Below are positions 18,319 to 35,141 of a stretch of DNA of 54,530 nt, piece after piece. The stretch is taken from the NCBI GenBank assembly GCA_003017855.1, contig PYER01000009.1, forward strand, positions 1 through 54,530, read 5' to 3'. Every line of letters begins with the position of its first letter. The stretch's first letter is position 1. The DNA is from a filamentous cyanobacterium CCT1 (GTDB lineage: Bacteria; Cyanobacteriota; Cyanobacteriia; Phormidesmidales; Phormidesmidaceae). A model generated the notes under the pieces. The model searched no databases. It was not told where the DNA came from and saw only the letters and a program-made list of their open reading frames with translations. A program made the position numbers and the translations under genes.

Positions 18319-18743
18319 CGCCAATAATTTCCTAAAACCTTGCCACTTATTGCTCAGCTAAAGAATTACGTTAAAGGTTTCCCTGCAATGCATTCTTCGA
18401 GCTTGTGACGCACAAAGAATCCATCGTTCGGAGAAATTTTCCCGCAGTACCCACCTCAAGTCTAAATAGACAAAACGTGAGAAATTGCCTTAGACAGCTA
18501 ACCTAATGCACAGTTGAGTGCTCAGTACAAGCGTCAGTCAACCTTTTTTCAACTAGTACGATACTATCTTCTCAGGGTTTATCTGCAAATAGCCAAAAGG
18601 AGATTCACCAAGATTTCACAAAGGTGCCAAATCATACCCCTTTACTTAAAGATTGAGCATAATGTATTGTATACAGCTTTTCCTCTCACTGCTATTGCTA
18701 TGAAGATAAGGTTTCAGCATACCGCTGTTTAGGGCATAGACCT
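18319..18743. promoter_or_regulatory. Divergent intergenic region between the two polysaccharide gene trains
   Basis: About 425 bases separate GT4 genes transcribed in opposite directions, so both trains probably start here. No strong paired -35/-10 boxes are obvious. CATAATG and TATACA near 18658-18678 are possible plus-strand -10 elements. A 72-codon frame at 18514-18732 has no recognisable family and is not called as a gene. Confidence 0.45.
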
Positions 18744-19880
18744 ATGAACGATCTTCGCATTGCATGGCTTTTGCCTGTAGCCTGGTTCTACTGGCAACCC
18801 GCCCTAAGCAAATTCACTCGGCTGTTTCCCGATACGGTTATTTTCACGGGGCTGTTTCCTGGATTTTCAAAAGGTTTAGAAGGTACGTTGCACGTTGAGA
18901 TCGTTGGTAAGTTTCGCGTCATTGAGGTAAATCGTGACGATAGTAGCTATGGGGACAACTTTACCTATCTTTCCCCAGCTATTGTTGGTCATTTACTCGC
19001 ATATAGACCGCAGGTCATCTTCACCAGTTCCTTTGGCGTCTGGTCTATTTTGGCTTTGGCTCTCAAGGTGGTGATGGGATGGCGTGTGGTGATTGCCTAT
19101 GAAGGAAGTTCTCCTGGTGTCGATTATCGCCATTCCGCTTTGCGATTGTTTGTGCGCCGGTTGATGGTACGGCTATCTGACGCTTGCATTACTAACAGTC
19201 AGGCGGGGAAAGATTATCTCGTCAATATTCTCTATGCCAAGCCAGATTGGGTGTTTTTGCAGCCCTATGAGATTCCTGATGAGCAAACCTTGCCGGGTTC
19301 AGGAGAAATTGGCGATCGCCTTTCCACGCTGCAACGCCCCATCTTTTTATTCGTCGGTCACCTCATTCCAAGAAAAGGGTTACCCTTACTGCTCCAAGCC
19401 TGTGCTATTTTGCGGCAACGTGGTTATGACCAGTACACACTGCTAGTGGTGGGTGATGGCTCGCAAAAGGAAGAGCTTCAGGCGTTTTGCGCAGAGCAAA
19501 ATTTGAGCGATCGTATTCAATGGGCTGGACGAGTTAGCTATGACGAAATCGGCAGCTATTTCAAACAATCCGATGTGTTTGTTTTCCCAACACTAGAAGA
19601 TACCTGGGGAGTTGTTACCCTGGAAGCTATGCTGTTGGGCAAGCCCGTTTTATGTTCCAAGGGAGCAGGAACTTCCGAGTTAGTTGTTTCTGGGAAAAAT
19701 GGCTTTGTGTTTCCTCCCGACGACGCGAACGCGCTAGCCGATTTAATGCAGAAGTTTTTAGATTACCCCGAGATGATTCCAGCTATGGGGGCACAATCGC
19801 AACAAATCATGGCTCAATATACCCCTGAAGCTGCGGCAGAGTGTTTATCCCAGGTCACTAAGCTGGTGATGCAGCAATGA
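18744..19880 (+). CDS. GT4 family glycosyltransferase
   Basis: A 378-residue GT-B glycosyltransferase and first gene of the plus-strand train. The donor domain carries IFLFVGHLIPRKGLPLLLQA, LLVVGDGSQKEELQAF and VFPTLEDTWGVVTLEAMLLG (E-x7-E, with the glutamate at E-D-T-W). The start MNDLRIAWLLPVAWFYWQPA has only a weak ribosome binding site. Donor sugar unknown. The next gene begins 43 bases after. Confidence 0.87.
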   Translation: MNDLRIAWLLPVAWFYWQPALSKFTRLFPDTVIFTGLFPGFSKGLEGTLHVEIVGKFRVIEVNRDDSSYGDNFTYLSPAIVGHLLAYRPQVIFTSSFGVWSILALALKVVMGWRVVIAYEGSSPGVDYRHSALRLFVRRLMVRLSDACITNSQAGKDYLVNILYAKPDWVFLQPYEIPDEQTLPGSGEIGDRLSTLQRPIFLFVGHLIPRKGLPLLLQACAILRQRGYDQYTLLVVGDGSQKEELQAFCAEQNLSDRIQWAGRVSYDEIGSYFKQSDVFVFPTLEDTWGVVTLEAMLLGKPVLCSKGAGTSELVVSGKNGFVFPPDDANALADLMQKFLDYPEMIPAMGAQSQQIMAQYTPEAAAECLSQVTKLVMQQ

Positions 19881-19923
19881 ACCCTGATCATATGTCTGAT
19901 CCATCAAAGCTCGAGCAACGCCC

Positions 19924-21084
19924 ATGACACCACCCAAGCTTGCCATCCTGACCCATGACATTAGTGGGGGAACCTTCACAAACCTCTGTACGGCTCTAGT
20001 TCGTGGTTTCCAGGAACTTGGGGCCGAGTGCCAGTTGGTGGTGCTCGATGCCAGCGACGAGGAATTAGCCAGGTACCCGGACATTCCCATCGTCACACTG
20101 AAGGTAAAGCGCACTGCCCTTTCCCTGGGTGCTACTGTAGGCTACTTACGGCACTATCAACCGGATGTGCTGTTTCCCATGCCCTGGTATTTCAATATTG
20201 TGGCCGTTTTAGCTCGGTTCCTGGCAGGGGTTCCCACAAAGGTAATTCTGGGGGAACACAACATCATTAGCCTGGAAGCAGGGGTTGAGCACCGCAGTAA
20301 ACCGCACTTGCGGTTCCTGCCTTTGGTAATGCGCTATGTCTATCCTTACAGCGACGGTCTCATTGGGGTTTCTGGAGATACCCTTGTGGATCTGGTGGAG
20401 ACGTTGAATATTTCCGCCAACATCCCCATGCGGGTAGTGCTCAATCCTATTAATCGCGATCGCGTTCAACAATTGGCCCAGGAACCCATTGACCATCCCT
20501 GGTTCCAGAGCCATGACCGACCTGTAATCGTGACCGCTGCACGGCTAGCCAAGCAGAAGCAACTCGATGGCTTGCTGCGAGCGTTTGCCCAGATCAAGCA
20601 GCAAATACCCGTAAGGTTACTCATTTTGGGAGAAGGTCCACTGCGAGCTGAGTTGGAACAGAACTGTCAAGATTTAGGTATTGAGGATGCGGTGTGGATG
20701 CCCGGGTACGACACCAATCCTTACCGATATATGGCAGCGGCAGATGTTTTTGTGCTGGCATCGGCCTGGGAAGGATGCCCGATCGCCCTGCAAGAAGCTA
20801 TGGCCTGCGGTGCAGCGGTAGTTGTTACCGATGCACCGGGGGGAATGAAGGACATCATTGAATACGGTAAACATGGATTACTGGTCCCCACAGGCAACCC
20901 AGATGCCCTAGCGGAGGAACTGTTGAAAATTCTAGCGGATCCTGAGTTAAAGCAGCATTATCAGGAACAGGCGCGGTTGCGATCGCTGGATTTTCACTAC
21001 CGTAATACCAGTCAGCAGTACCTTGATTTTGGTTGTTCTGTGATGGCATCTTCCATGAAAACCAAGGAGGCAATTACCCCATGA
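19924..21084 (+). CDS. GT4 family glycosyltransferase
   Basis: A 386-residue GT-B enzyme opening PKLAILTHDISGGTFTNLCT, with the acceptor loop and GEHNIISLEAG in the first half. The donor half has VIVTAARLAKQKQLDGLLRA, LLILGEGPLRAELEQ and ASAWEGCPIALQEAMACG (E-x7-E). Its architecture and the HPWF motif (EPIDHPWFQ) resemble the two minus-strand GT4 genes, so all three share an ancestor. Its stop overlaps the start of the next gene (ATGA), a sign of coupling. Confidence 0.88.
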   Translation: MTPPKLAILTHDISGGTFTNLCTALVRGFQELGAECQLVVLDASDEELARYPDIPIVTLKVKRTALSLGATVGYLRHYQPDVLFPMPWYFNIVAVLARFLAGVPTKVILGEHNIISLEAGVEHRSKPHLRFLPLVMRYVYPYSDGLIGVSGDTLVDLVETLNISANIPMRVVLNPINRDRVQQLAQEPIDHPWFQSHDRPVIVTAARLAKQKQLDGLLRAFAQIKQQIPVRLLILGEGPLRAELEQNCQDLGIEDAVWMPGYDTNPYRYMAAADVFVLASAWEGCPIALQEAMACGAAVVVTDAPGGMKDIIEYGKHGLLVPTGNPDALAEELLKILADPELKQHYQEQARLRSLDFHYRNTSQQYLDFGCSVMASSMKTKEAITP

Positions 21085-22316
21085 AGGTTTTGATCTCTGC
21101 CTATGCCTGCGAACCGGGACGAGGTACGGAGTTGGGAGTAGGGTGGAACACTGTACGAGAAGTGGCGCGTTACCACGACGTGTGGGTTTTAACCCGCCCC
21201 GATGATGGTCGAGAAGCGATCGAAGCTGAGCTAACGCGCGATCCAGTTCCAAACCTGCAATTCGTTTACTTTACCTTACCCCTTTGGGGGGGAGGCTGGA
21301 AGTGGGGACAAGGAGCTTTTCAAATCCACTACTACCTTTGGCAAGTTCAAGCCTACTTTGTAGCCCGCAAGCTCCATCGAGAAATAGGCTTTGATATCGC
21401 CCACCACGTTACTTTTGTCAAATATTCGACTCCAAGTTTTCTATCCCTTTTGCCAGTCCCCTTCATTTTGGGTCCCGTTGGCGGTGGCGAAATGGCTCCC
21501 AAACCATTCTGGAAAGATTTTAGCCGCAAGGCAAAGCTCTACGAAATTTTGCGGAATGTCATGCGTTGGGTGGGTGAGATTGATCCCTTTACCCGCATGA
21601 CCGTGCGCCGGAGTACCTTGGTCTGGGCTACGACGGACGACACAGCAAAGTGCTTGGTGGCCATAGGTGGCAAAAATGTACAGCTGCTTTCCCAGGTCGG
21701 GCTACTGCCAGAGGAAGTGGAGCAGTTAGCCCAGTTTTCTCCCTCCACCCCAGTGCCGTTGCGTTTTATTAGCATCGGGCGTTTGCTGCATTGGAAAGGC
21801 TTTCACCTTGGGTTGCACGCGTTTGCCAAGGCGGAACTTCCTCCAGAGGCCGAATACTGGATTGTAGGCAAAGGGCCGGAAGCCGAATCCCTGCAAAGGT
21901 TGGCAACAGAACTGTGCATTGTCAGTCAGGTTAAGTTCCTCGATGAAATGCCCCGTACTGACTTAATACAGAAGTTGGGAACTTGTCTGGCCCTGGTTCA
22001 TCCTAGCCTTCACGATTCAGGAGCGTTTGTGTGTCTGGAGGCAATGGCAGCCGGGCGTCCGGTGATTTGTCTGGATTTGGGAGGGCCAGCAGTGCAGGTA
22101 ATTGAGGAGACGGGCTTTAAGATTCCAGCCCAGAACCCAGAGCAGGCGATCGCCGGTATGGCGCAGGCGATGAAACGGCTGGCTACCGAACCCGAACTGC
22201 GGGTACAGCTGGGAATGGCAGGACAGGAGCGGGTTTATCAATCCTTCAACTGGGCAACAAAAGGGCAGTTTTTATCGACCGTTTATGAAAAACTTTGGTT
22301 GCAGCAGGACAAATAA
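21081..22316 (+). CDS. GT4 family glycosyltransferase
   Basis: A 411-residue enzyme beginning MKVLISAYACEPGRGTELGV at ATG 21081, a hallmark opening of a GT4 subgroup common in exopolysaccharide loci. LGPVGGGEMAPK is the conserved acceptor motif. The donor domain has RFISIGRLLHWKGFHLGLHA and HPSLHDSGAFVCLEAMAAG, where the first glutamate of E-x7-E is replaced by aspartate as is usual in this subgroup. An upstream in-frame methionine at 21033 lies inside the previous gene and is rejected in favour of the ATGA-coupled start. The next gene starts directly after the stop. Confidence 0.88.
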   Translation: MKVLISAYACEPGRGTELGVGWNTVREVARYHDVWVLTRPDDGREAIEAELTRDPVPNLQFVYFTLPLWGGGWKWGQGAFQIHYYLWQVQAYFVARKLHREIGFDIAHHVTFVKYSTPSFLSLLPVPFILGPVGGGEMAPKPFWKDFSRKAKLYEILRNVMRWVGEIDPFTRMTVRRSTLVWATTDDTAKCLVAIGGKNVQLLSQVGLLPEEVEQLAQFSPSTPVPLRFISIGRLLHWKGFHLGLHAFAKAELPPEAEYWIVGKGPEAESLQRLATELCIVSQVKFLDEMPRTDLIQKLGTCLALVHPSLHDSGAFVCLEAMAAGRPVICLDLGGPAVQVIEETGFKIPAQNPEQAIAGMAQAMKRLATEPELRVQLGMAGQERVYQSFNWATKGQFLSTVYEKLWLQQDK

Positions 22317-23477
22317 ATGAAAGTTTTAGCCGTTCACAACTATTACCAACAACCCGGTGGAGAAGAACAGATTTTCAACACCGAAGCGACTCTACTACAG
22401 TCCTATGGCCATGAGGTTATACGCTATACCCTCACCAACGATCAGATCAACGGGATGAACCCCTTGGTGCTGGCGAAAAATACCCTCTGGAACAGTTCCG
22501 TGTATCAGGAGTTGCGATCGCTCGCTCGTCAAGAAAAACCTGATATAGCTCACTTCCACAATACTTTTCCACTCATTTCTCCGGCAGCCTACTATGCCCT
22601 TAAGGAAGAGGGTATACCCGTTGTGCAAACCCTACACAACTATCGTCTGCTCTGCCCTAATGCCTTGTTTTTCCGGAATGGCAAGATCTGCGAAGACTGC
22701 CTCGGTAAATCATTACCCTTACCAGGGGTTGTTCACGGTTGTTATCGAGAGAGTCGCAGTGCCAGCGCTATGGTGGCATCCACTGTCAGCTTTCACACCT
22801 GGCTGAATACCTGGAATAAGGCGGTTGATCGGTTCATTGTCTACAGCCAATTTGCCATGGATAAGTTTGTTCAGGGGGGCTTGCCGGCAGAAAAGCTCGT
22901 CTTTAAAACTAACTTTCTTCACCCCGATCCTGGAATTGGTCAGGGAAAAGGGGGCTACGGCCTGTTTGTCGGACGCTTGTCGGTCGAAAAAGGGCTTGGG
23001 GTGATGCTGGATGCGTGGCGGCAGTTAGATGGTAAGATACCACTCAAAATTCTGGGTGATGGCCCAATGTCAGACTTGGTGGTTGAGGCCATGCAGACAA
23101 TGCCTGAGATTGAATGGCTGGGGCGCAGACCGCTAGAAGAGGTCTATGAAGTGGTTGGCAATGCCGCTTTTCTGGTCTTTCCTTCAGAGTGGTATGAAAC
23201 CTTTGGACGGGTCGCGATTGAAGCCTTTGCCAAGGGTACACCTGTAGTTGCGTCAAATATTGGGGCGATCGCTGAACTCGTAGACCATGAACGCACTGGA
23301 CTCCTTTTTCGACCTGGCGACTCTACCGACTTAGCAACCCAAATCCATTGGTTGTTGGCCCATCCCGAAAAGCTACGTCAAATGCGGCAGGGTGCTCGCG
23401 CTGAATTCGAGGCAAAGTATACGGCTGGTAAAAATTGCAAGCGGCTTATGGAAATTTATCAAACTGTACTCACCTAA
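22317..23477 (+). CDS. GT4 family glycosyltransferase
   Basis: A 386-residue enzyme starting MKVLAVHNYYQQPGGEEQIF, the signature of a GT4 subgroup of capsule transferases. HFHNTFPLISPAAYYALKE and QTLHNYRLLCPNALFFRNG follow, with a cysteine-containing ICEDCLGK segment. The donor half shows LFVGRLSVEKGLGVMLDAW, ILGDGPMSDLV and PSEWYETFGRVAIEAFAKG (E-x7-E). Its ATG immediately follows the TAA of the upstream gene, so the pair is coupled. Confidence 0.89.
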   Translation: MKVLAVHNYYQQPGGEEQIFNTEATLLQSYGHEVIRYTLTNDQINGMNPLVLAKNTLWNSSVYQELRSLARQEKPDIAHFHNTFPLISPAAYYALKEEGIPVVQTLHNYRLLCPNALFFRNGKICEDCLGKSLPLPGVVHGCYRESRSASAMVASTVSFHTWLNTWNKAVDRFIVYSQFAMDKFVQGGLPAEKLVFKTNFLHPDPGIGQGKGGYGLFVGRLSVEKGLGVMLDAWRQLDGKIPLKILGDGPMSDLVVEAMQTMPEIEWLGRRPLEEVYEVVGNAAFLVFPSEWYETFGRVAIEAFAKGTPVVASNIGAIAELVDHERTGLLFRPGDSTDLATQIHWLLAHPEKLRQMRQGARAEFEAKYTAGKNCKRLMEIYQTVLT

Positions 23478-23576
23478 TCATTGAAACAAAGCAGCTAAGA
23501 GAGTTAATTAGTGCACAGTGTATGTATTCCTAATGTTGTTCCGAATTTTGTTTTGATCGTACCCCTCATCAGAATT

Positions 23577-24629
23577 ATGCGTATTAATTACTTGTACCCA
23601 CTTTACCACCTACGTCCCAATAATCTCCTACCCCTCTATCATTTGGGGATCCGAGTAATTAATAAACTCTTAAGCCTTCCCTCCGATATAGCCGCCAAGA
23701 TTCACAGTACTGATTGGGTTGAGCAATCAATCCTTTTACCCCAATATCAGCAGTACTTAACTCACTATCAAAACCACCTACCAAAACTTGATACGAGCGA
23801 TCTCACTATTGCTGAACAAATTGAGCAGGAGGGAGTTTCTATTACCTCTTTAGAGGCATTAGCGATTCCACAGACTGAACTACTCCTGGAAGCGGCTCAA
23901 CAGATTATGACTGAACTTGCCCAACGATCTCGCTCACCAAGTCACGCTCATAAACACACTTTAATGGCAACCGCCAATCAATTGATGGCGCATCCGGAAA
24001 TCTTTTTTTGGGGTTTGTCAGAACGAATTCTTAAAATTGTGGAATACTATCTAGGGCTACCGGTTGCTTATGACGGCTTGGCCTTTTACTACAGTGTGGC
24101 GGATGGCAGAAACGCCGGACCTCGAATATGGCACCGCGACAAGGAAGATTGGAAGATGGTCAAGGTCGCTGTTTATCTAAACGATGTGGATGAGCTTGGT
24201 GGCCCTTTCCAGTCCGTCAAATCTACCGTAAATACCTGGTTAATTGAAACACTTCCTAAGTACAGAGGGCTAACACACACAGAATTACAACAGTTGTTCG
24301 ATGCAGATTCAGGAAAGGCAGATTCCTGCCATTGGCTAAATTCCTGTGTTGGCAAGGCTGGAACGGTAATTTTTACCGATACTGCCCGATTTTACCATCG
24401 CGGTAAGCCACCTATTAAGACTGATCGCTCGGCAATTTTTTTCCACTACTTCAGCCAGCGTCCTAAAAACCCCTTTTTCTGTGAGCGATCGCTCCTCTCG
24501 CGCAAACAAACTGCTGATCTTACCAATCAGCTCCCACCTAATCTTCAAAATCACCTCCTCTGGAGAAATTGCTATCCAGGAATTGGGCGCTATATTCCTA
24601 AGAACTACATGCGGGTTGACAATTGGTAA
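23577..24629 (+). CDS. Phytanoyl-CoA dioxygenase-like 2OG-Fe(II) oxygenase
   Basis: A 350-residue protein with the PhyH-type iron-binding fold. PRIWHRDKEDWKMVKVAVYL gives the proximal H-x-D; AGTVIFTDTARFYHRGKPP supplies the distal histidine, and TDRSAIFFHYFS the co-substrate arginine. The N-terminal third is family-specific and lacks known motifs. ATG 23577 is preferred over GTG 23511, whose extra 22 residues are unlike the rest. It is the second iron/2OG oxygenase of the locus, following four GT4 genes. Family members hydroxylate small molecules; the substrate here could be a sugar, lipid or peptide. Confidence 0.8.
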   Translation: MRINYLYPLYHLRPNNLLPLYHLGIRVINKLLSLPSDIAAKIHSTDWVEQSILLPQYQQYLTHYQNHLPKLDTSDLTIAEQIEQEGVSITSLEALAIPQTELLLEAAQQIMTELAQRSRSPSHAHKHTLMATANQLMAHPEIFFWGLSERILKIVEYYLGLPVAYDGLAFYYSVADGRNAGPRIWHRDKEDWKMVKVAVYLNDVDELGGPFQSVKSTVNTWLIETLPKYRGLTHTELQQLFDADSGKADSCHWLNSCVGKAGTVIFTDTARFYHRGKPPIKTDRSAIFFHYFSQRPKNPFFCERSLLSRKQTADLTNQLPPNLQNHLLWRNCYPGIGRYIPKNYMRVDNW

Positions 24630-24749
24630 ATCTTTAAATTTGCTCTGTTATAGCCCCATAAGCTTTCAGGAAAAAACAGAAGCCGATTCAAACAGATTTA
24701 TATAATAATTTTCAATTTGTAGAATTCTATCCTACCTCGAAATAATACC

Positions 24750-27077
24750 ATGGAGTTTACTAGGGAAAAAACTTATATTACTAAGGGATCTGCAATATGC
24801 TTGATGTTCTTCAATCATTTATATGCCTTCCACGATCGTCTTATAAACGGGAACTATTACATTCCTTGCCAGTTGTACTCACCCTCCTTTGTTGATTTAA
24901 TTCTCCCCACTGCCACCGCAACGGCAGCAAATCTCACAACCGCACGTGCAGGGGGCACTACCTACGACTTCATCGTCACTTACACAGACAACGTGGCGGT
25001 CAATACTTCGACCCTCGATAGTAGTGATGTGCAGGTCACTGGCCCCAATGAATTTAACCAATTTGCTAGTCTGGTGAGTGTCAATACCAGTGGCAATGGC
25101 ACACCTCGCACGGCGACCTATCGTATTACCGCACCGGGTAGTACCTGGGACACCACTGATAACGGCACCTACACCTTAGCCTTACAAAAGAATCAGGTGA
25201 GTGACAACAGCAACAACTTTATTGCAGCCAGCACCCTGGGTACTTTCTCGGTGGATCTTCCAGCTTTTCCACCCAGCACGAGCGAAAATATCGTCTTTCC
25301 CGCCGGTGCAGGGGTTCTCAATGTCAAGGACTTTGGAGCCAAGGGAGATGGCGTTACAGATGATACGGCAGCGATTCAGGCTGCTCTCAATGCTTACCCG
25401 AATGGCAAGCGAATCATTTACTTGCCTAATGGCACCTACTTGATTTCAAACACTTTAACTTGGCCGGCCGGCACTCCCGGAACAGGAAACGAATATAAGA
25501 ATACTATTCTACAAGGGCAGAGTGAGAACGGTGCAGTTATTAAATTGAATAATAACTCAGCAATTTTCTCAGATCAAAATAATCCAAAAGCGGTGATCTT
25601 TACAGGCCCTGCCCCAGCGCAGCGGTTTGGAAACTCGATCCGCAACCTAACAGTTGATACAGGAACGGGCAATCCAGGAGCAATTGGAGTTCAGTTTAAT
25701 GCTAGTAACCAAGGCTCGATGCGCCAAATTACGATCCGGTCAGGTGACGGGCAAGGCGTACATGGACTGGATATGAGCTTTGCTAATGAAATTGGTCCCT
25801 TATTAATTAAGGGAGTCACTGTTGATGGTTTTCAGTATGGCATTCGCACAGGTTTTTCGGTTAATAGCCAAACACTTGAGGACATAACGCTGCAAAATCA
25901 AAGCGTCTATGGTTTTTACAACACTGGACAAATTATCAATATTCGTGGTTTGACGAGCAACAATGATGTAACAGCAATTTACAATGCAGGCGGACGAGTA
26001 ACAGTGCTTGACTCAACCTTAAATGGCTTGGGTCAAGCATCAACTCAGCCTGCAATCAGAAGTGATTTCCCGCTGGATCTCGTTGTTCGAAACATTGCAA
26101 CTTCAGGATATGGTGCAGCAATTCAAAATGCAGGTACAACCATTGCAGGACCGGTAATCTTAGAATTTGTTTCAGGTGGTATTCAAAATTTATTTCAATC
26201 CCCTGGGCAAACTTTGAATTTGCCCATCAAAGAGACTCCCGATGTTCCCTGGGATGATCCAACTACGAATCCTTGGGCTAATGTCATTTCTTATGGAGCG
26301 ATTCCAAACGATGGTTTGGATGATACAGCCGCAATTCAAGCAGCGATAGACTCAGGTAAAACGACTGTTTATTTGCCAGTTGGCAACTATGATCTTCAAA
26401 ATACAGTGTTTGTTCGCAACAATACCCGCCGGATTATTGGAACTGAAGCTTACATTGAAATTAACAACACCGTGAATCCAGGCTTTAAAGTAATTGACGG
26501 GACAAACCCTGTTGTTGTTATAGAACGTATTCAAACGGGTTTTAATTCAACCCCAACTTTTGAGAATGCCTCCTCCCGTACGTTGGTAGTACGTGATAGT
26601 ACGAATGTCTCCGGCAATATGACAGGCTCAGGGGATGTTTTCCTTGAAAATGTTGTTTCTAATCCCTTACAAAACTGGACGTTTGATAAACAAAACGTAT
26701 GGGCACGCCAGTTTAACGTTGAGAATCAAGGCACCCACATTATCAATAATGGTGGCAACCTTTGGATTTTTGGATTGAAAACCGAGAGAGGAGGGACATT
26801 GATTGATACCAGAGATGGAGGAAAAACAGAACTATTAGGAGGCTTAGCCTACACTACAACGTCCGCTCCAAATGGGATGCAAGACAATCCTATGTTTATT
26901 AACCATGAGTCTTCTATCTCTATCACTCTGGGCGAAGTCAGTTTTCTGGATGACGATTTAGAGTACACAACCTACGTTAGGGAAACACGAGACGGAGTCA
27001 CACGCTATCTTTCTGGCGACAGTTTGACGTATTACGTGGGAGGCGGTAAGCACGTACCACTTTATGTAGGGTATTAG
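24750..27077 (+). CDS. Chimeric protein: acyltransferase-3 N-terminus fused to a pectate-lyase-3-like beta-helix protein
   Basis: A 775-residue open frame. Residues 1 to about 45 (ITKGSAICLMFFNHLYAFHD, NGNYYIP) look like the first membrane segment of an acyltransferase-3. From about residue 49 (VDLILPTATATAANLTT) sequence changes abruptly to a secreted, Asp/Thr-rich repeat module (YTDNVAVNTSTLDSSDVQVT) typical of cyanobacterial adhesin/cadherin-like proteins. Then come two parallel beta-helix domains, each opening with a pectate-lyase-3 motif: VLNVKDFGAKGDGVTDDTAA (about 190) and VISYGAIPNDGLDDTAAI (about 510). There is no signal peptide of its own, although the borrowed membrane segment might act as an anchor or signal. 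It was probably made by recombination between two genes. Such beta-helix proteins bind or cleave polysaccharide. Confidence 0.72.
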   Translation: MEFTREKTYITKGSAICLMFFNHLYAFHDRLINGNYYIPCQLYSPSFVDLILPTATATAANLTTARAGGTTYDFIVTYTDNVAVNTSTLDSSDVQVTGPNEFNQFASLVSVNTSGNGTPRTATYRITAPGSTWDTTDNGTYTLALQKNQVSDNSNNFIAASTLGTFSVDLPAFPPSTSENIVFPAGAGVLNVKDFGAKGDGVTDDTAAIQAALNAYPNGKRIIYLPNGTYLISNTLTWPAGTPGTGNEYKNTILQGQSENGAVIKLNNNSAIFSDQNNPKAVIFTGPAPAQRFGNSIRNLTVDTGTGNPGAIGVQFNASNQGSMRQITIRSGDGQGVHGLDMSFANEIGPLLIKGVTVDGFQYGIRTGFSVNSQTLEDITLQNQSVYGFYNTGQIINIRGLTSNNDVTAIYNAGGRVTVLDSTLNGLGQASTQPAIRSDFPLDLVVRNIATSGYGAAIQNAGTTIAGPVILEFVSGGIQNLFQSPGQTLNLPIKETPDVPWDDPTTNPWANVISYGAIPNDGLDDTAAIQAAIDSGKTTVYLPVGNYDLQNTVFVRNNTRRIIGTEAYIEINNTVNPGFKVIDGTNPVVVIERIQTGFNSTPTFENASSRTLVVRDSTNVSGNMTGSGDVFLENVVSNPLQNWTFDKQNVWARQFNVENQGTHIINNGGNLWIFGLKTERGGTLIDTRDGGKTELLGGLAYTTTSAPNGMQDNPMFINHESSISITLGEVSFLDDDLEYTTYVRETRDGVTRYLSGDSLTYYVGGGKHVPLYVGY

Positions 27078-27203
27078 TGACCTGAAGTATAAGTTCAACA
27101 TGGAATTTTTGAAGAATTGAACAGATTTGGAAGGATAGCCTGACAAACTTTACTGGCTTAAAGGAGAATTAGTGGATTATGAATAGCCTGTCAGGACAAT
27201 CCG

Positions 27204-27690
27204 ATGGTTGTATGCATAGCAGAAGATCTTATCAGCGAAGAAAGTGCCGTCAGACTTCTCCTGCTGAGTTTGGCAAAGCGTTTTGATGTTCCAATCGTCC
27301 TTTATTCCCCCCCCCCACAACCCAAGCTTTCAAAACCTGGTCAGGACAGTTCTCCCAAGCGGAGCTACGGTGCATACCGTTCTCGAAAGTTTCAGGATGG
27401 AGTGTCAAACCTTCAGCATTGTTAGCATCACTGGAAGAAGGACAAGAAGAAGTTTGGTGGATCGATTCTGACATTACCTTGAGCTTTGATTTCCGTCCCT
27501 CCAACGGCAATCTTGATGATTCAGTGTTAGTCATTGCAGAAGATGCTTTATTTGGCTTTTATCAAAACAATTGTTATTGGGACAAAAAGACTGGTGATTT
27601 GAGGTCCGCCGAGTGTTACCCTTCTCCCTCAATACTGGCGTGGTCCGGGTCACACTGACTGAAAGATCAGGATCGATAGCACTTACTTAA
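27204..27690 (+). pseudogene. Glycosyltransferase-like gene fragment with three frameshifts
   Basis: The 5' part reads MVVCIAEDLISEESAVRLLL then PIVLYSPPP, where a run of ten C (about 27307-27316) shifts the frame. It resumes as SFQNLVRTVLPSGATVHTVL, shifts again near 27405 to GWSVKPSALLASLEEG, and includes EVWWIDSDITLSFDFRP, a D-x-D-containing motif like nucleotide-sugar transferases, and LVIAEDALFGFYQN. A last shift near 27605 gives VRRVLPFSLNTGVVRVT before TAA. The gene is also cut short. It sits between the chimeric gene and wzy. Original function is inferred only from the D-x-D. Confidence 0.65.
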
Positions 27691-27697
27691 AACTTGT

Positions 27698-29077
27698 ATG
27701 GATACCCCACTTTATCTCTCAAGCTCTCAGGCATCCACCCTGACAAAAAAGCAGGAAAAGTACCGTTTGGGAACTTCTGTCCTGATCGCGATCGCTTTTA
27801 GCAGTGTCTTCTTTTCCAGAGTGCTCGATACCCTAGGTGCTCCTTCAATCATCAACTTTGCTCACTTTGCTCTTGTCCCCTTAGCTACTTGGGTAGCCTT
27901 GACCAAAACTCGAATTCGCGATCGAGAGCAGCGGGAAATGGTCTACACTATTCTATGCTTTATATTTATATTTCTGAGTGTTGTTTTAATCAGCACACTT
28001 GTTAATAATGCCGGTATCATCAACGCAATTTTAGCCTTTTTGCTATGGGTGGAGCCGTTTTTCTTGCTTGTCGCTATTCTGTGCCTTCCCAGTCAGTTAA
28101 ATCTGATTAGCCGACTGCAAAAATGGATTCTCTACGCATTTGTATTTCACACTCTATTAGCCTTTGTTCAGCATTATGTGCTTCACCTTTATCGTCTTCC
28201 CGGTCTAGAGGATAATATCCAAGGCGTCTTTTACCGCTCAGGTTCTGGGCATGTAGTTGGTGCATCAGTTGCCCTAGACTTTGGTGTCTACTGGTTATTC
28301 ACGGGCAAGCAGTACCCACTCTGGTTACGTAGCGTATTTTTGCTGGCGGCCTTCTGGCACATGCTGCTCTCTGATGCTAAGCAAGTTTTACTTTATATGC
28401 TAGTAGGAGGAGTATTACTTCTATTGTCAAAGCTTAAAAATTTAGTAGAAACTATCAAATGTCTTGCAGTTGGAGCTGTAGTAGGCTTAACGTTGCATTG
28501 GTGCATTCAGAATCTTGCTGCCTTCAGCGCCTTCAATACCTGGATGCGTCCAGAAATCTATGGTTCTGATGGGGAGGCTACCCTTCTTAAGTTCTCTGCC
28601 TTTCGAATTGTCCCATCCTTCTATCAATCCAGCTGGAACTTTCTTTTTGGGTTGGGACCTGGGCACACCGTTGATCGACTTGGGGGTTGGATGTTGTTTG
28701 AATACTGGAACTTACTGGGCCCACTAGGAGCAACAACCCATCCCGCCAGTATCTCGGTCTGGCAAGCTGTAGGCGCTAGTTGGCTTGGAGATCAATCAAG
28801 CATGTTTTCTCCCCTCTTTGGCTGGGCTGCTATTTGGGGAGATTTTGGGTGGATTGGCTTAGTCAGCTTTTTCGGCCTTTGCACAGTAGTTTACCTTAAA
28901 GTCTGCAATGATGACGTTTCTAAGTATCTTATGTTTACTGCCCTAGCTGTAGGGCTTATCTTTTCTCAGCTACAAGAACCAGGTTATACAATGGCAATTG
29001 CTCTATTTATTGGTTTCAGATGGCATGAGAAAAGGCTGTTTGAGGCGGCAGAGAGCAGCCAAGCTAATAATTTATAA
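27698..29077 (+). CDS. Wzy/O-antigen-ligase-like polysaccharide polymerase
   Basis: A 459-residue integral membrane protein with about ten to twelve hydrophobic helices, for example ILCFIFIFLSVVLISTL, WVEPFFLLVAILCL and VLLYMLVGGVLLLLSKL. Long periplasmic loop at about residues 280-390 contains GLGPGHTVDRLGGWM and GWAAIWGDFGWIGLVSFFGL, the usual ends of Wzy/WaaL-type enzymes. Sequence identity among such proteins is low, so polymerase rather than ligase is a contextual call: wzc, wza and many transferases lie nearby. It is the last gene before an IS5 remnant and the rfb operon. Confidence 0.72.
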   Translation: MDTPLYLSSSQASTLTKKQEKYRLGTSVLIAIAFSSVFFSRVLDTLGAPSIINFAHFALVPLATWVALTKTRIRDREQREMVYTILCFIFIFLSVVLISTLVNNAGIINAILAFLLWVEPFFLLVAILCLPSQLNLISRLQKWILYAFVFHTLLAFVQHYVLHLYRLPGLEDNIQGVFYRSGSGHVVGASVALDFGVYWLFTGKQYPLWLRSVFLLAAFWHMLLSDAKQVLLYMLVGGVLLLLSKLKNLVETIKCLAVGAVVGLTLHWCIQNLAAFSAFNTWMRPEIYGSDGEATLLKFSAFRIVPSFYQSSWNFLFGLGPGHTVDRLGGWMLFEYWNLLGPLGATTHPASISVWQAVGASWLGDQSSMFSPLFGWAAIWGDFGWIGLVSFFGLCTVVYLKVCNDDVSKYLMFTALAVGLIFSQLQEPGYTMAIALFIGFRWHEKRLFEAAESSQANNL

Positions 29078-29168
29078 AGAAAAAAATAAGCTTCTATGGC
29101 TCTTTGCGGCAAGAATTTGCGCTAATAGCTTTTAGAGCTATTTTCTAAACTAAACTTTGGGTCACTAT

Positions 29169-29357
29169 TCACCGAGTGTGGGCCGAATAAAAGCCCTTTA
29201 AATCATGACTTTTGGTTGAAGTGTAGGCCTTATAGTCCTTGCTCAGACGCCGATAGCAACTATACAACGTGTGTTCTACAATTCGGCGCTTAGACAGCAA
29301 TTCAATCGCCTTTTGAATTTGCTTGATAACTTTAACACGTACCGCATTTCCACAGAT
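29169..29357 (-). pseudogene. C-terminal remnant of an IS5-family transposase
   Basis: The minus-strand frame gives KVIKQIQKAIELLSKRRIVE, HTLYSCYRRLSKDYKAYTS and a TGA at 29171-29169. It corresponds to the C-terminus of IS5-family transposases (pattern W/I-V-E-x-T-x-x-x-x-x-x-x-R-R-L-S-K-D-Y). The upstream portion is missing. It lies between wzy and rfbC; no terminal repeats were identified. Confidence 0.65.
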
Positions 29358-29488
29358 TCTTTAAGCAGCCTCCGCAAAATTTCCCCTAAAATATCCTTGG
29401 TTTATGAAAATTTAGAAAAGTATTTCAAGTTTGTTATATAAACAGACTCGACTTGCTATACTGAGCCTAAGCCATATGTGATATTGCC

Positions 29489-30043
29489 ATGAGTATTAAT
29501 ATCAATGTCTCTAGCAAAATAGACGAAGTTATTTGTATTAGTCCCAAGGTCTTTAAAGATGATCGCGGTTTTTTCTATGAAAGTTTTAATCAGAAGAAGC
29601 TCATAGAGAATTTTGAGATAAACTACCAGTTTGTTCAGGACAATCATTCTTGCTCTTGTCTAGGAGTTTTGCGCGGTCTCCATTACCAAATTCAGCAACC
29701 TCAGGGCAAGCTTGTTCGTGCCGTCACTGGCGAGATCTTCGACGTCGCTGTAGATCTCCGCAAAGGCTCAAAAACTTTTGGCCAGTGGGTCGGCTATCAT
29801 CTCTCCGCAGAAAATAAAAAACAGCTCTGGATACCACCCGGTTTTGCCCACGGTTTTGTGGTTCTTTCTGAAGTCGCAGACGTTTTGTATAAAGCTACGG
29901 ATTACTACGCTCCTCAACATGAGCGAACTATCCTTTGGAATGACCCTAATTTGGCCATTGATTGGCCACTTTCCGGGAATCCTATTTTATCACCCAAGGA
30001 TCAGGCGGGGCAGTCCTTTGAGCGGGCAGAAGTATATCCATGA
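29489..30043 (+). CDS. rfbC: dTDP-4-dehydrorhamnose 3,5-epimerase
   Basis: A 184-residue cupin that inverts C3 and C5 of dTDP-4-keto-6-deoxyglucose, the third step to dTDP-L-rhamnose. Seen: DDRGFFYESFNQKK, VLRGLHYQIQQPQGKLVRAV with the catalytic histidine, VAVDLRKGSKTFGQWVG, KQLWIPPGFAHGFVVLSEVA and ADVLYKATDYYAP with the catalytic tyrosine. Full family length. The first of four contiguous rhamnose genes; its stop overlaps rfbD by ATGA. Confidence 0.95.
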   Translation: MSININVSSKIDEVICISPKVFKDDRGFFYESFNQKKLIENFEINYQFVQDNHSCSCLGVLRGLHYQIQQPQGKLVRAVTGEIFDVAVDLRKGSKTFGQWVGYHLSAENKKQLWIPPGFAHGFVVLSEVADVLYKATDYYAPQHERTILWNDPNLAIDWPLSGNPILSPKDQAGQSFERAEVYP

Positions 30044-30963
30044 CGCAAATTTTGCTCATTGGTTCAACCGGGCAACTCGGCCAGGAGTTACTACAAATGT
30101 TGTCCCCTCACTACGAAGTTACTGCCAGCAATCGCAACCAAATCGACTTGACGGCTCCTGAAACTATACGAGATATTATTACTCGTCAACGTCCAAAAGT
30201 GATTATTAATGCAGCGGCCTATACGGCCGTGGACAAAGCCGAGACAGAACCTGATTTGGCCTTTGCTATCAATGCAACCGCACCACAAATTATTGCCGAA
30301 ACGGCTCAACGAGTGGGAGCGAGTTTTATTCATGTCTCAACCGACTATGTCTTTAGCGGTCAACATCACCTGCCCTATCAAGAAATTGATCCCCCTCAGG
30401 CGCTTGGAGTGTACGGACGTTCTAAGTTGGCTGGGGAAAATCTGGTACAGCAGGCCTGCGATCGCGCCATTATCCTTCGCACCGCTTGGGTTTACAGTGC
30501 CTACGGTAAAGGTAATTTTGTTAAAACTATGCTGAGATTAGGCCGTGATCGCGAAGAACTGAAGGTGGTAATGGATCAAGTTGGAACTCCCACTTGGGCA
30601 CAACAGATTTCTGAAGTGATCAGCCAGCTGTTGCCTATGTTTAACACCCCTGCCCTTGATTTGGAAAAGATGGGTGTTTACAACTGCACCAATAGTGGCG
30701 TAGCCAGCTGGTACGACTTTGCGATCGCGATTTTTGAAGAGGCACAAGAGTTAGGTTTTCCCCTTAAGATTAAACATGTTCATCCCATTACCACCGATGA
30801 GTTTCCGACTCTAGCTCAACGCCCGGCTTATTCTGTCTTATCCAATCAAAAACTTATCTCCATATTGGGTGCGTCTGCGCCTCACTGGCGTAGTAGTTTG
30901 CGGCAAATGCTCAGTCAACTTTACAAAAATACCTATGAAAGCACTTATCCTCTCCGGCGGTAA
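30040..30963 (+). CDS. rfbD: dTDP-4-dehydrorhamnose reductase
   Basis: A 307-residue SDR-type reductase that uses NAD(P)H to make dTDP-L-rhamnose. Nucleotide-binding GSTGQLGQELLQML at the N-terminus, VIINAAAYTAVDKAETEPDL and the STDYVFSG block, then VYGRSKLAGENLV with the catalytic Y-x-x-x-K. FPTLAQRPAYSVLSN near the end is the substrate-site hallmark. Overlaps rfbC by four bases and rfbA by 29 bases, a tight operon. Confidence 0.95.
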   Translation: MTQILLIGSTGQLGQELLQMLSPHYEVTASNRNQIDLTAPETIRDIITRQRPKVIINAAAYTAVDKAETEPDLAFAINATAPQIIAETAQRVGASFIHVSTDYVFSGQHHLPYQEIDPPQALGVYGRSKLAGENLVQQACDRAIILRTAWVYSAYGKGNFVKTMLRLGRDREELKVVMDQVGTPTWAQQISEVISQLLPMFNTPALDLEKMGVYNCTNSGVASWYDFAIAIFEEAQELGFPLKIKHVHPITTDEFPTLAQRPAYSVLSNQKLISILGASAPHWRSSLRQMLSQLYKNTYESTYPLRR

Positions 30964-32008
30964 AGGTACACGATTACGTCCCCTAACTTATACTGGAGCC
31001 AAGCAGCTGGTGCCAGTGTGTAACAAACCGATTCTTTGGTACGGCATCGAGGCCATCGTTGCTGCGGGTATTACCGATATTGGTATTGTCGTCAGCCCCG
31101 AAACCGGTGAGGAAGTCAAAGGCAAAACTGGCGATGGGGAACGGTTTGGTGCTCGTATTACCTATCTAGTTCAAGACCAACCGGCAGGGCTTGCTCACGC
31201 GGTCAAAATTGCTCAACCTTTTCTGGGCGATGTCCCTTTTGTGATGTACCTAGGGGACAACCTGATCCAGGACAGTTTACATCGATTTTGTCATACCTTC
31301 AAATCTCGGCAACTCGAAGCCCTTACCCTGTTAAAGTCAGTTCCTAATCCTAAGGCATTTGGAGTCGCTGAAGTTGACGCCAGCGGCAAGATTCTTCGCT
31401 TGGTTGAAAAACCTGAACTCCCCCCCTCTGACTTAGCCCTGGTTGGAGTTTACTTTTTTTCTCCAATTATCCATGAAGTTATCGCTGACCTGAAGCCGTC
31501 GGAACGTGGCGAATTGGAAATTACCGATGCGATTCAAACCTTAATCGATCTACAAAAAGCTGTTGAAGCTCAGCAGCTAGAAGGCTGGTGGCTCGATACA
31601 GGTAAAAAAGATGACCTACTAGAGGCAAACCGCATCATTCTCGACGCTTACACAAACTGCTCCGTGAGCGGAGATGTAGATACCCAAAGCCGAGTAATTG
31701 GCCGAGTTGATGTTGGAGTTGGTACTCGCATCATCAACTGCACCATTCGCGGTCCTGTGATTATTGGAGATAACTGCCATCTCGAAAACTGTTTCATTGG
31801 TCCTTACAGTAGCATTGCTGACAACGTAACCTTGGTAGATATGGACCTTGAGCACAGTGTTATTCTGCAAGGGGCCCGCCTTGAAAATATTCACCATCGC
31901 ATCGTTGATAGCTTAATTGGTCAGAAAGCCTCGCTCAAGCCAGCCTCCTACCGTCCTAAAGCTGTTCGGCTGATGATCGGTGATGACTGCCAAATTGAAC
32001 TGGTGTGA
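30935..32008 (+). CDS. rfbA: Glucose-1-phosphate thymidylyltransferase (long form)
   Basis: A 357-residue enzyme that activates glucose-1-phosphate with dTTP, the first step to dTDP-rhamnose. MKALILSGGKGTRLRPLTYT is the nucleotidyl transferase signature, VMYLGDNLIQDSLH the metal-binding aspartate block, and LVEKPELPPSDLALVG and WWLDTGKKDDLLEANR further family marks. The C-terminal third (GRVDVGVGTRIINCTIRGPV) is a left-handed beta-helix, so this is the long form found in cyanobacteria and archaea, unlike enterobacterial RfbA. ATG 30935 lies inside rfbD and is chosen because MKALILSGGKG is the conserved start. Confidence 0.94.
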   Translation: MKALILSGGKGTRLRPLTYTGAKQLVPVCNKPILWYGIEAIVAAGITDIGIVVSPETGEEVKGKTGDGERFGARITYLVQDQPAGLAHAVKIAQPFLGDVPFVMYLGDNLIQDSLHRFCHTFKSRQLEALTLLKSVPNPKAFGVAEVDASGKILRLVEKPELPPSDLALVGVYFFSPIIHEVIADLKPSERGELEITDAIQTLIDLQKAVEAQQLEGWWLDTGKKDDLLEANRIILDAYTNCSVSGDVDTQSRVIGRVDVGVGTRIINCTIRGPVIIGDNCHLENCFIGPYSSIADNVTLVDMDLEHSVILQGARLENIHHRIVDSLIGQKASLKPASYRPKAVRLMIGDDCQIELV

Positions 32009-32018
32009 GGGTTAATTC

Positions 32019-33146
32019 ATGACATTTACTAATACTCATTCATCTTTCTCTGGCCGACGCCTGCTAATTACAGGTGGAGCGGGCTTTATTGGATCCAATT
32101 TTGTTCACCATTGGATGCAACTCTATCCCCAAGACCGTATTGTGGTGCTCGACGCTCTAACCTACGCTGGCAACCATAGCAGTTTGGTTAGCTTGGAAGC
32201 CCAGCCAAACTTTCAATTTGTGCAGGGAGATATTTGCGATCGCCCTCTGATCGAACATCTGCTCCAGGAAGAGATGATTGACACTGTCGCCCATTTCGCA
32301 GCAGAATCCCACGTTGATCGGTCGATCCTGGGACCAGAAACTTTTGTTCAAACCAATGTTGTCGGAACCTTTACTTTACTAGAGGCGGTTCGTCAGTGCT
32401 GGTCTCAAGGCCAACCTTCGGCTAAGTTTTCCGACCATTACCGTTTTCTTCATGTCTCTACCGACGAGGTCTTTGGCAGCCTAGGGCCTGAAGACCCGGC
32501 CTTTTGCGAAACCACTCCCTATGCCCCCAATAGCCCTTACTCCGCTTCCAAGGCTGGCAGCGATCATTTAGTACGAGCATACTATCACACCTACGGCCTC
32601 CCTACACTGATCACCAACTGTTCCAATAACTACGGACCTTACCACTTTCCCGAAAAGTTAATTCCGCTGATGTGCATCAACATTCTGCTGGGCAAGCCTC
32701 TGCCGATTTATGGCGATGGCCAAAACATTCGCGATTGGCTCTACGTCAAAGACCACTGCCGGGCATTAGATTTGGTCATCCGCAAAGGTGTCCCCGGTGA
32801 GACCTATACCGTTGGCGGCAATAACGAAGTTAAAAATTTGGATCTGATTCATGCCCTGTGCGATCTGATGGATGAAATGGTGCCTGATTTACCAGTTTAT
32901 CCATCCCGTAACTTAATTACCTTTGTGAAAGATCGCCCTGGTCACGATCGACGCTACGCTATTGACGCCACTAAACTGAAAACCGAATTAGGTTGGTCTC
33001 CAACCGTCAACGTTCAGGAAGGGTTGCGCCAAACGATTGAGTGGTATCTGGAAAACCAACAATGGTGGAAGCCCTTACTATCCGAGGAATACCAGACCTA
33101 TTACCAGCAAGTTTATGACAATTCCTCCTATACAGCCTTATCATAA
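32019..33146 (+). CDS. rfbB: dTDP-glucose 4,6-dehydratase
   Basis: A 375-residue extended SDR that converts dTDP-glucose to dTDP-4-keto-6-deoxyglucose. RLLITGGAGFIGSNFVHHWM binds NAD; VAHFAAESHVDRSILGPETF, HVSTDEVFGSLGP (catalytic threonine-aspartate-glutamate) and SPYSASKAGSDHLVRAYYHT (catalytic tyrosine and lysine) are complete. FVKDRPGHDRRYAIDATKLK is the C-terminal signature. Follows rfbA by ten bases. Its product could also feed the aminotransferase at 4.7-5.9 kb. Confidence 0.95.
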   Translation: MTFTNTHSSFSGRRLLITGGAGFIGSNFVHHWMQLYPQDRIVVLDALTYAGNHSSLVSLEAQPNFQFVQGDICDRPLIEHLLQEEMIDTVAHFAAESHVDRSILGPETFVQTNVVGTFTLLEAVRQCWSQGQPSAKFSDHYRFLHVSTDEVFGSLGPEDPAFCETTPYAPNSPYSASKAGSDHLVRAYYHTYGLPTLITNCSNNYGPYHFPEKLIPLMCINILLGKPLPIYGDGQNIRDWLYVKDHCRALDLVIRKGVPGETYTVGGNNEVKNLDLIHALCDLMDEMVPDLPVYPSRNLITFVKDRPGHDRRYAIDATKLKTELGWSPTVNVQEGLRQTIEWYLENQQWWKPLLSEEYQTYYQQVYDNSSYTALS

Positions 33147-33386
33147 AAGCACTTTTTTTGGTGACAATTGGTTTTACCGTAAACTTAGAGCCTATACTAA
33201 TCCCGTATGAATTGGGAAATTGAACCGGTAGTATGATTACGGCTTATCGCAATACGGTAGACCTAGCCGGAACCCCCTGACGTGGCTGTAAGACGACCTT
33301 AGTCAACGCCATTGACTCCGACCAAAACGCAACAATATCAGTATTGTTCGTGGGTATGGGATAGAGGTTTTTGGCGGGGCGAAGTG

Positions 33387-33392
33387 TTATGA
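33387..33392. repeat. Target-site duplication (left copy) of the IS1634-type element
   Basis: TTATGA lies directly against the left inverted repeat and is repeated at 35114-35119 against the right one. A 6-bp duplication fits IS1634-family insertion. Confidence 0.85.
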
Positions 33393-35113
33393 CCGACATT
33401 CCGCAGGTTGACAAAAGGGATATTTGGAGGTGCTGAGGTAAGCTCAGAATCAGCCATGGGATTGCGTCTTGGAGATAGAGAATCTGGATCACCTAGGGTT
33501 GGTAGCCGCCTTAGTCGATGAGATCGGGCTGGTAGAGCTAACTGACGAGCTTCTGGCTCCCCATCCGTTGAACCACATCAGCCCAGGGCAAGTGGTGAAA
33601 GCGATGATCCTCAATGGGTTAGGGTTTGTCAGCGCACCGCTGTACCTGTTTAGCGAGTTTTTCGACGGGAAACCGGTCGAGCACCTGCTGGGCGCGGGGA
33701 TTACGGCGGCACATCTCAACGATGACCGTTTGGGACGGGTGCTAGATCAGCTGTTTGAGTGCGGGACGACGTTGTTTTTTCTCAAAGTAGCGATGCAGGC
33801 CGTGATCCGTTTTGGGGTGAGCGTCTCCCAGTGCCATCTGGACTCGACCTCCTTCACCCTGGATGGGGAGTATCCCAGTGTCAGCGGGTCTAAGACTGCA
33901 CTGGAGACTGGAGAACCCCAGACGATTGAGATTTGTCGGGGCTATTCGCGAGACCATCGGCCTGAGTTGAAGCAGTTCTTGGTCAACTTGATCTGTAGTG
34001 CTGACGGCGGTATACCGGTGTGGTTCAAGGTGGGCAGCGGCAATGAGACCGATAGCCAAACCTTTGCGGGACTGATGCGGGCGTTTGCCGAGCAGTGGCA
34101 GACGCCCGCACTGATGGTGGCTGATGCGGCGTTCTACAGTGAGCCTAACCTCCAGCAGGTGGGGAGTTTGCCATGGCTGAGCCGGGTCCCACAGACCCTC
34201 AAAGCGGCTCAAACCTGGATAGATAGCACCCTCGACTCACCGACCGAGATGCTCTGTGAGGTGGAGGGGTATCGGCTGTGGGAACAACGGCAGCGCTACG
34301 GCGGAGTAGACCAGCGCTGGATCCTGGTGGAGAGCCCGCATCGAACGCAGTCACAGGATTGGCTCAAACCCCTGGAAAAGCAGGAAAAGGGTCTGCAACG
34401 GTCTCTGCGGCAGCTCTGGAGCCAGGTCTTTGCTTGCAAGCCTGATGCCATGGACGCGCTGATGCGCTTTCAGGACTCCCTAACCGGCTATACCCTGACT
34501 CAGGTGGCACTGGTCTCGGTTGCCGCTAAGCGTCCCCCCGGTCGGCCCAAGCGCGCTAGGCCCTCAAACTCACCGGCTCTGGGCTATCAATGGCAGGCCA
34601 CCCTGGAGCGCACTGCTGAGTATGAGGCTCAGTGCCAACAGCGCCATCGTCGATTTATTCTGGCCACCAATGTCCTGGATGAAGACGCCTACCCTGCCGA
34701 GCGTCTGCTGCGCGAGTATAAAGCCCAGCAGCACGTCGAGCGGGGCTTTTGCTTCCTCAAAGACCCCCTCTTCTTCACCAGCAGCGTCTTTGTCAAAAAG
34801 CCTCAGCGGGTCGAGGCCCTGGCCCTCGTGATGGCCTTGACGCTGCTGGTCTACAGTCTCGGCCAACGGAAACTCAAAGCACAACTCGCTCAAGCCGACG
34901 ACACGGTGCTTGACCAAAAGCAGCGCCCCACTCGCAATCCGACCTTTCGCTGGATTTTGCAGAAGTTTCAGGCGATTCACCTGGTCTCAATCGCTTCCTC
35001 TCAGCAGGTCAGCAACCTCTCAGAAGAACGCAGCAAAATCATTCGCCTCATGGGCTTTCCAGCCTGCCGCTACTATCTCTTAAATTAACCTCTGTCAACC
35101 TGCGGAATGTCGG
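33393..35113 (+). mobile_element. Intact IS1634-type insertion sequence
   Basis: A 1721-bp element bounded by perfect inverted repeats: left CCGACATTCCGCAGGTTGAC at 33393 onward, right the reverse complement ending at 35113. It is flanked by the 6-bp direct repeat TTATGA. It holds one uninterrupted transposase, so it may be able to move. It lies between rfbB and wzc. Confidence 0.88.
33469..35088 (+). CDS. IS1634-type transposase (DUF4277 plus DDE domain)
   Basis: A 539-residue transposase. The N-terminal IENLDHLGLVAALVDEIGLV is the DUF4277 segment seen at the start of this family. DDE core: CHLDSTSFTLDGEYP (first aspartate), VADAAFYSEPNLQQV (second) and YKAQQHVERGFCFLKDPLFF (H-x-E-R-x-F with the catalytic glutamate). 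PPGRPKRARPSN near residue 350 is a basic linker. The only start that fits is TTG at 33469. The frame has no interruption, in contrast with the other transposases in this window. Confidence 0.9.
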   Translation: MEIENLDHLGLVAALVDEIGLVELTDELLAPHPLNHISPGQVVKAMILNGLGFVSAPLYLFSEFFDGKPVEHLLGAGITAAHLNDDRLGRVLDQLFECGTTLFFLKVAMQAVIRFGVSVSQCHLDSTSFTLDGEYPSVSGSKTALETGEPQTIEICRGYSRDHRPELKQFLVNLICSADGGIPVWFKVGSGNETDSQTFAGLMRAFAEQWQTPALMVADAAFYSEPNLQQVGSLPWLSRVPQTLKAAQTWIDSTLDSPTEMLCEVEGYRLWEQRQRYGGVDQRWILVESPHRTQSQDWLKPLEKQEKGLQRSLRQLWSQVFACKPDAMDALMRFQDSLTGYTLTQVALVSVAAKRPPGRPKRARPSNSPALGYQWQATLERTAEYEAQCQQRHRRFILATNVLDEDAYPAERLLREYKAQQHVERGFCFLKDPLFFTSSVFVKKPQRVEALALVMALTLLVYSLGQRKLKAQLAQADDTVLDQKQRPTRNPTFRWILQKFQAIHLVSIASSQQVSNLSEERSKIIRLMGFPACRYYLLN

Positions 35114-35119: not shown

Positions 35120-35141
35120 GTCTTCCTACGGGCATCTCAAA

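Follow-up and report, generated by a model that had tools for sequence, protein, structure and literature searches.

An in-frame chimera of an AT3 acyltransferase start and a modular exoprotein in a cyanobacterial EPS locus

Is the open reading frame at 24750-27077, which begins like an AT3 acyltransferase and goes on as a secreted beta-helix protein, a new working enzyme, a remnant, an error of assembly or an old architecture? The window (the whole stretch of DNA analysed, 54,530 nucleotides, identical with contig C546) belongs to a 6.85-Mb draft genome of 546 contigs with a completeness of 96.76%; the host is cyanobacterial, judged from the relatives of the locus. The explanation that accounts best for the whole, and that we consider fairly probable, is a deletion fusion in an eroding EPS locus that left a poorly exported remnant.

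The chimeric frame, its parts and its parents

The frame runs uninterrupted through 775 codons from an ATG and encodes a product of 775 aa. This opens with the beginning of an AT3 acyltransferase (residues 1-39), and the C-terminal portion of a modular exoprotein makes up residues 41-775 (Table 1). The original prediction of a chimera between an AT3 start and a secreted beta-helix protein is borne out, two unrelated genes being fused in frame, and the ATG belongs to the AT3 part, which supplies the start codon as had been proposed. Its AT3 part of about 45 residues has to be shortened to 39 (CQLYSPSFVD after the joint aligns with SQLFSPAPVD of the exoprotein) and its join at about 24890 moved upstream to codon 39/40; the change of frame it described does not occur within the ORF, the two genes being joined in phase. 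The pectate-lyase-3-like units were rightly named: PF12708 (Pect-lyase_RHGA_epim, 'pectate lyase 3') scores 117.7 bits against a curated cut-off of 27, in two stretches, the best at 190-425. PF01757 gave no Pfam match for the ORF at E 0.1, the repeat module has no Pfam family at the same threshold, and all NCBIfam matches lay far below their curated cut-offs.

Table 1 Features of the chimeric gene, its surroundings in the window and the parent genes in L033 (genome G215).
Feature	Position	Strand	Evidence or remark
Second AT3 gene, pseudogene	1578-2457	-	In-frame stops; PF01757 in two pieces
Upstream neighbour, presumably dioxygenase-like	23511..24629	+	No Pfam match; also upstream of intact AT3 in L033
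AT3 (PF01757-type) first 39 codons: start codon, N-tail, TMH1 with K12-X10-H23	24750..24866	+	Sequence matches to intact AT3 genes
Fusion joint, AT3 (..ATT CCT) / exoprotein (..GC CAG TTG)	24866..24869	+	Codon comparison with L033, L034, L022 (AT3) and L033, L046 (exoprotein); pairwise alignments
Last residues following a PA14 domain (QLYSP) and one beta-sandwich-like repeat module	24870..25280	+	Module alignments; strands in model
Two beta-helix units, GH55-like rib-cage fold	25281..27077	+	PF12708, E 8.4e-34; PDB profile; Foldseek; VIA-align
Relic of a ~360-aa protein, three frames, truncated	27204-27666	+	Matches first ~150 residues of intact relatives L140, L141
Downstream neighbour, presumably Wzy-like membrane protein	27698..29077	+	No Pfam match; follows exoprotein gene in L033, L046, L047, L048, L050
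L033 AT3, intact, 351 aa	9686-8631	-	
L033 exoprotein, intact, 1382 aa	8085-3937	-	
L033 Wzy-like gene	3909-2551	-	

The first 46 residues alone were searched in 388 genomes of the class at E 0.05, and 10 genomes matched, the own genome included. Three matches outside it were strong: G284 (E 8.9e-15), G215 (1.2e-14) and G186 (6.2e-13); they align over residues 1-39 or 1-40, lie in open frames of 356-388 aa and are intact genes with PF01757 over nearly the whole profile. Six weaker matches followed (E 0.003-0.047, three with a stop). The AT3 start is identical to intact AT3 genes at 29/39 (L034), 27/39 (L033) and 27/39 (L022) positions, the same range as these three genes show among themselves (27, 28 and 28 of 39). 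K12-X10-H23 of the window is present in all three. For the family, excerpts of PMC9833829 describe an R-X10-H motif and a cytoplasmic N-terminus, a topology also given in excerpts of PMC7448272.

Undamaged parents of both parts, proposed earlier as a check in related genomes, were found side by side in G215. The order there is GT - GT - GT - GT - dioxygenase-like - AT3 - exoprotein - Wzy-like on the minus strand; in the window it is GT - GT - GT - GT - dioxygenase-like - [AT3 start::exoprotein end] - relic - Wzy-like. The intact AT3 of L033 thus stands directly upstream of the intact exoprotein gene, between the same neighbours as the window fusion. The L033 exoprotein consists of about 240 N-terminal residues without Pfam family, two PA14, two repeat modules and the PF12708 part; the unfused exoprotein of L046 (MAG Leptolyngbyaceae M33_DOE_097; 1115 aa) has one PA14 and one module by alignment to L033. 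Identity of the beta-helix part to the window is 90% (L046) and 79% (L033). The window module is closest to the first L033 module (72%), ahead of that of L046 (62%) and the second of L033 (58%), so that it is not certain how many modules the direct parent of the fusion had. The exoproteins of L047, L048, L050 and L052 have an N-terminal hydrophobic helix, and each gene has the Wzy-like gene or the glycosyltransferases of the window locus close by. An alignment of fusion residues 1-37 to the N-terminus of the L033 exoprotein gave scattered, meaningless pairings and was disregarded.

Export, selection and the fate of the product

It had been suggested that the borrowed piece perhaps provides membrane insertion as well, a suggestion to which Kyte-Doolittle values, the only and a crude measure of helix strength used, give little support. 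The best 12-residue mean of the AT3 helix is 1.57; in the first 70 residues of the fusion the best 19-residue window reaches 1.04 and is not on that helix, the maximum elsewhere in the protein being 1.16. TMH1 of the intact AT3s scores 1.38 (L033) and 1.44 (L022), and 12 orthologues with an N-terminal export helix, chosen by us, score 1.94-2.65. The closest orthologues, L046 and L033, have values of 0.58 and 0.74 and no hydrophobic N-terminus; presumably they are exported via their N-terminal domain or by another route, and that domain was lost in the fusion. YIPC around Cys40 does not fit the lipobox rule. A second start that would bypass the AT3 part was sought and rejected: beyond the joint no in-frame ATG occurs before codon 324, and GTG or TTG at codons 42, 82, 94, 109 and beyond lie inside or after the module region with no evident export helix behind them. 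Scans for promoters (8 sites against 5.9, sd 2.7, in shuffles) and terminators (4 against 3.1, sd 1.9) were uninformative.

In the exoprotein part constraint is largely kept. Its beta-helix part differs from L046 by dN 0.056 and dS 1.09 (dN/dS 0.05), its module by dN 0.26 with dS saturated; for most other pairs dS was saturated and gave no value. In the other 49 sequences 85 columns reach a conservation of at least 85%; the fusion keeps 83 of them and departs at V327I and L674F, against none or one departure in each of the seven closest orthologues. The beta-helix part shows a mild excess of replacements on the window branch: with five outgroups 27 non-synonymous and 47 synonymous changes fall on it, against 9 and 47 on the L046 branch (Fisher p 0.011). 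With L033 as single outgroup the counts are 45/89 (window) against 19/83 (L046), with L047 34/88 against 23/84. The excess depends on the setting (p 0.011, then 0.02, 0.005, 0.152 and 0.011 with stricter settings), and at the laxest setting 190/320 differences could not be polarised. In the module it is reversed (window 18/28, L046 32/23, one outgroup). L049 entered the five-outgroup counts for the beta-helix part only; its rows of the pairwise and single-outgroup counts were dropped, a stop having shifted the codon mapping. That stop, a TAG around 9600-9720 (+) in the repeat module of the L049 exoprotein (Leptolyngbyaceae C42_A2020_001), cuts the N-terminal part from the beta-helix part and is possibly a MAG error.

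For 18 excess replacements about one stop is expected under neutrality (P of none 0.37), so that stop counts do not discriminate decay from constraint. The counts allow, but do not prove, a mild relaxation or a changed role in the window lineage. The fusion gave no handle for dating: its AT3 piece differs from the intact AT3s as much as they differ mutually, and the direct parent species was not found. Most changes on the branch may therefore be older than the fusion, and the conservation and the replacement excess alike cannot be placed after it.

The surroundings of the fusion are decaying in places. The relic next door yielded no Pfam match for its two ORFs; one of its intact relatives has a sub-threshold Nucleotid_trans match (E 0.026), the other none, and to call it a glycosyltransferase is a guess. 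The AT3 pseudogene lies on the same contig; C390, another contig of this genome, has two more AT3 matches, both in open frames. The dioxygenase-like gene of G215 (L033:9788-10549, -) has an internal deletion, residues ~227-329 being missing, and the window copy is whole. As these genes read, the same cassette is eroding differently in two lineages, having lost the dioxygenase-like middle in G215 and the AT3 in the window. Parts of 44100-54530 are 91-92% identical to the same-genus genome G016, so the contig belongs to this genus. Within 15500-35400 G016 gave five short matches of 66-70%, all beyond 32290, the fusion and the glycosyltransferases ahead of it being unmatched; with matches so sparse, the EPS locus is patchy in the genus. 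Its origin is probably horizontal or mobile. A DUF4277/DDE_Tnp_1 transposase gene stands at 33469-35088.

What, then, would the product do? On balance we expect it to fold into the module and a GH55-like double beta-helix and yet to remain mostly unexported, as a young allele becoming a pseudogene. Its own N-terminal part would be gone and the AT3 TMH1 would be a poor export signal, in a locus already eroding at the relic and the AT3 pseudogene, so that the allele would be heading the same way. The weak helix, the replacement excess in the beta-helix part and the three-frame relic next door speak for such a remnant; against it stand the open frame of 775 codons, the 83/85 conserved columns, the dN/dS of 0.05, the module without excess and an AT3 piece no more diverged than intact AT3s. 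That L046 and L033 also lack a hydrophobic N-terminus counts against it too, because export need not rest on such a helix.

A new working anchored enzyme is the strongest competitor, and an unlikely one. The AT3 TMH1 (N-inside, C-outside) would serve as signal anchor and fix the GH55-like part to the plasma membrane's outer face, there to trim or bind the EPS of the locus. With a cytoplasmic AT3 N-terminus, as in the excerpts of PMC9833829 and PMC7448272, TMH1 leads outward, the joint in the loop after it should be periplasmic, and the topology of the fusion would be right for export. In its favour, too, a hydrophobic export helix stands at the N-terminus of at least 12 orthologues, and the open frame encodes a conserved enzyme core. 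The helix, however, holds S14, N22 and H23 and scores below the orthologue export helices and below TMH1 of the intact AT3s L033 and L022, and within the soluble part one stretch attains 1.16; no such fusion was present in any other locus or genome searched, and the beta-helix part has its replacement excess. The poorly exported remnant, to which we give slightly better than an even chance, is therefore preferred over the functional tethered enzyme, which we regard as doubtful.

Origin of the fusion

The window codons at the joint are AAC TAT TAC ATT CCT | TGC CAG TTG TAC TCA. Those on the left follow AT3 (L033: AAT TAT TAC ATT CCC TTA), those on the right the PA14 end (L046: AGC CAG TTG TTT TCA). 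By this codon comparison the fusion is shown to join the first 39 codons of AT3 in phase to the exoprotein from codon ~383 onward. No long repeat common to both parents was seen at the joint; ATTCC occurs in both, one to two codons off. Missing from the window is the L033 span from 9548 to 6936, about 2.6 kb. In the own genome (96.76% complete) the L033 AT3 query matched only at its start, 24735-24869, the rest not being found elsewhere; of the L033 exoprotein query only residues 383-512 and 783-1380 matched, both in the fusion ORF, and residues 1-382 were unmatched.

With no long shared repeat at the joint, an illegitimate deletion of about 2.6 kb is the simplest cause. Judged from the gene sequences, such an in-frame deletion between neighbouring colinear genes very probably made the fusion. 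It would have taken out the remaining ~305 codons of AT3, the DNA between the two genes and the exoprotein up to codon ~382 (N-terminal domain and PA14), leaving an ORF that would borrow the AT3 start site. The acyltransferase once encoded by this AT3 gene is lost. The parents and the cause by deletion go beyond what had been proposed.

An assembly artefact, a contig wrongly joining two genes, is improbable. The draft genome is in 546 contigs, and a relative has modules and PA14 domains in repeat copies, which can collapse in assemblies; against this, both sides are syntenic and colinear with L033 with only the middle missing, the missing parts are not elsewhere in the assembly, and the joint has no long repeat common to both parents.

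An AT3-like helix native to this exoprotein family, as an ancient normal architecture, can practically be dismissed, nothing having been found in its favour within the scope of the search: the orthologues carry other N-termini (export helices, or a ~240-aa domain and PA14), and the AT3 start was found on related exoproteins in 0/79 loci (tblastn, E 0.1). These loci are the best 79 of 396 relatives found, and in several the contig breaks off shortly upstream of the gene (after about 1 kb in L046), so that there the absence of an AT3 neighbour is no proof. As a positive control the exoprotein query matched 92/99 loci and the AT3-start query only the three AT3 loci. In the order the 775-aa protein matched in 15/63 genomes, own genome included, and among the listed matches only the own one begins before query residue 25.

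Searched separately, as had been suggested, the AT3 start leads to intact AT3 genes and residues 41 on to an unrelated modular exoprotein. The expectation that neither family normally has the other agrees with the 0/79 loci and with the strong matches in the class (388 genomes), which are the own gene and three intact AT3 genes; both parts together in distant genomes, the finding that would have spoken for an old architecture, were looked for and were absent from the loci and genomes searched. Among the titles found by literature searches not directed at the exact fusion, none described an AT3::exoprotein fusion, and absence from print is not claimed.

Comparison with known systems

The nearest known structures are GH55 beta-1,3-glucanases. 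The AlphaFold2 model was made from 50 sequences, the alignment holding no homologues for residues 1-39; mean pLDDT is 85.9, mostly at least 95 in the beta-helix part and below 50 in residues 1-68. The best structural match (VIA-align) is 5m5z (Z 30.8, rmsd 2.8, 552 residues), followed by 3eqn (30.6), 8jhh (29.1) and 4pex (24.0), with the next entry at 21.7 over 255 residues; Foldseek gave E 1.3e-16 to 3eqn, and 5m5z was also the best match of a PDB profile search (E 4.3e-30). Common to CtLam55 (5m5z), PcLam55A (3eqn), MnLam55A (8jhh), SacteLam55A (4pew/4pex) and model residues 177-775 are two beta-helical domains (Z 30.8 to 23.6), which the predicted model sets in the GH55 rib-cage arrangement, whereas identity is 15-23%. 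Marks of a GH55 active site are a general acid Glu, an assisting Tyr, a second Glu-His and an aromatic block. At least 90% of the 50 sequences retain E658 and E679, which are 21 apart; in the excerpts of PMC10637969, SacteLam55A uses Glu480 and Glu502, 22 apart. Their equivalence is putative, drawn from spacing. If they are the equivalents, the fusion has N659 where GH55 has a His right after the first Glu, and G682 where it has a Tyr three places beyond the second, and for that reason the reading stops at a GH55-like fold and a probable glycan hydrolase or binder; the substrate is likely a different, EPS-type glycan. Contigs with such double beta-helix genes beyond cyanobacteria (L056-L121) are titled Verrucomicrobia, Planctomycetota, Bacteroidetes, Armatimonadetes and Clostridia.

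What the fusion shares with AT3 (PF01757) acyltransferases is residues 1-39, which include TMH1 and a K-X10-H form of R-X10-H; it lacks the other nine of the ten helices, and no acyltransferase activity would be expected of it. With the exoproteins of L033 (1382 aa) and L046 (1115 aa) it has the module and beta-helix part in common; their N-terminal domain and PA14 domain(s) are replaced in the window by the AT3 start. Automatic annotation by domain may label the ORF a glucanase or pectate-lyase-like protein and miss the borrowed start. EPS clusters can lose acyl-decoration and tailoring enzymes piecemeal, as the fusion shows; were it functional, a single TMH1 could be recycled as an anchor.

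Deletion between adjacent genes can yield gene fusions and pseudogenes. The present case resembles these in its colinear neighbours and the in-frame loss of the middle, and does not differ from them in principle. Here both parents are documented, with their order and an unfused sister gene of 90% identity, so that a natural instance of a gene born, or dying, through deletion is well resolved. As a deletion fusion it is ordinary in kind and unusually well documented.
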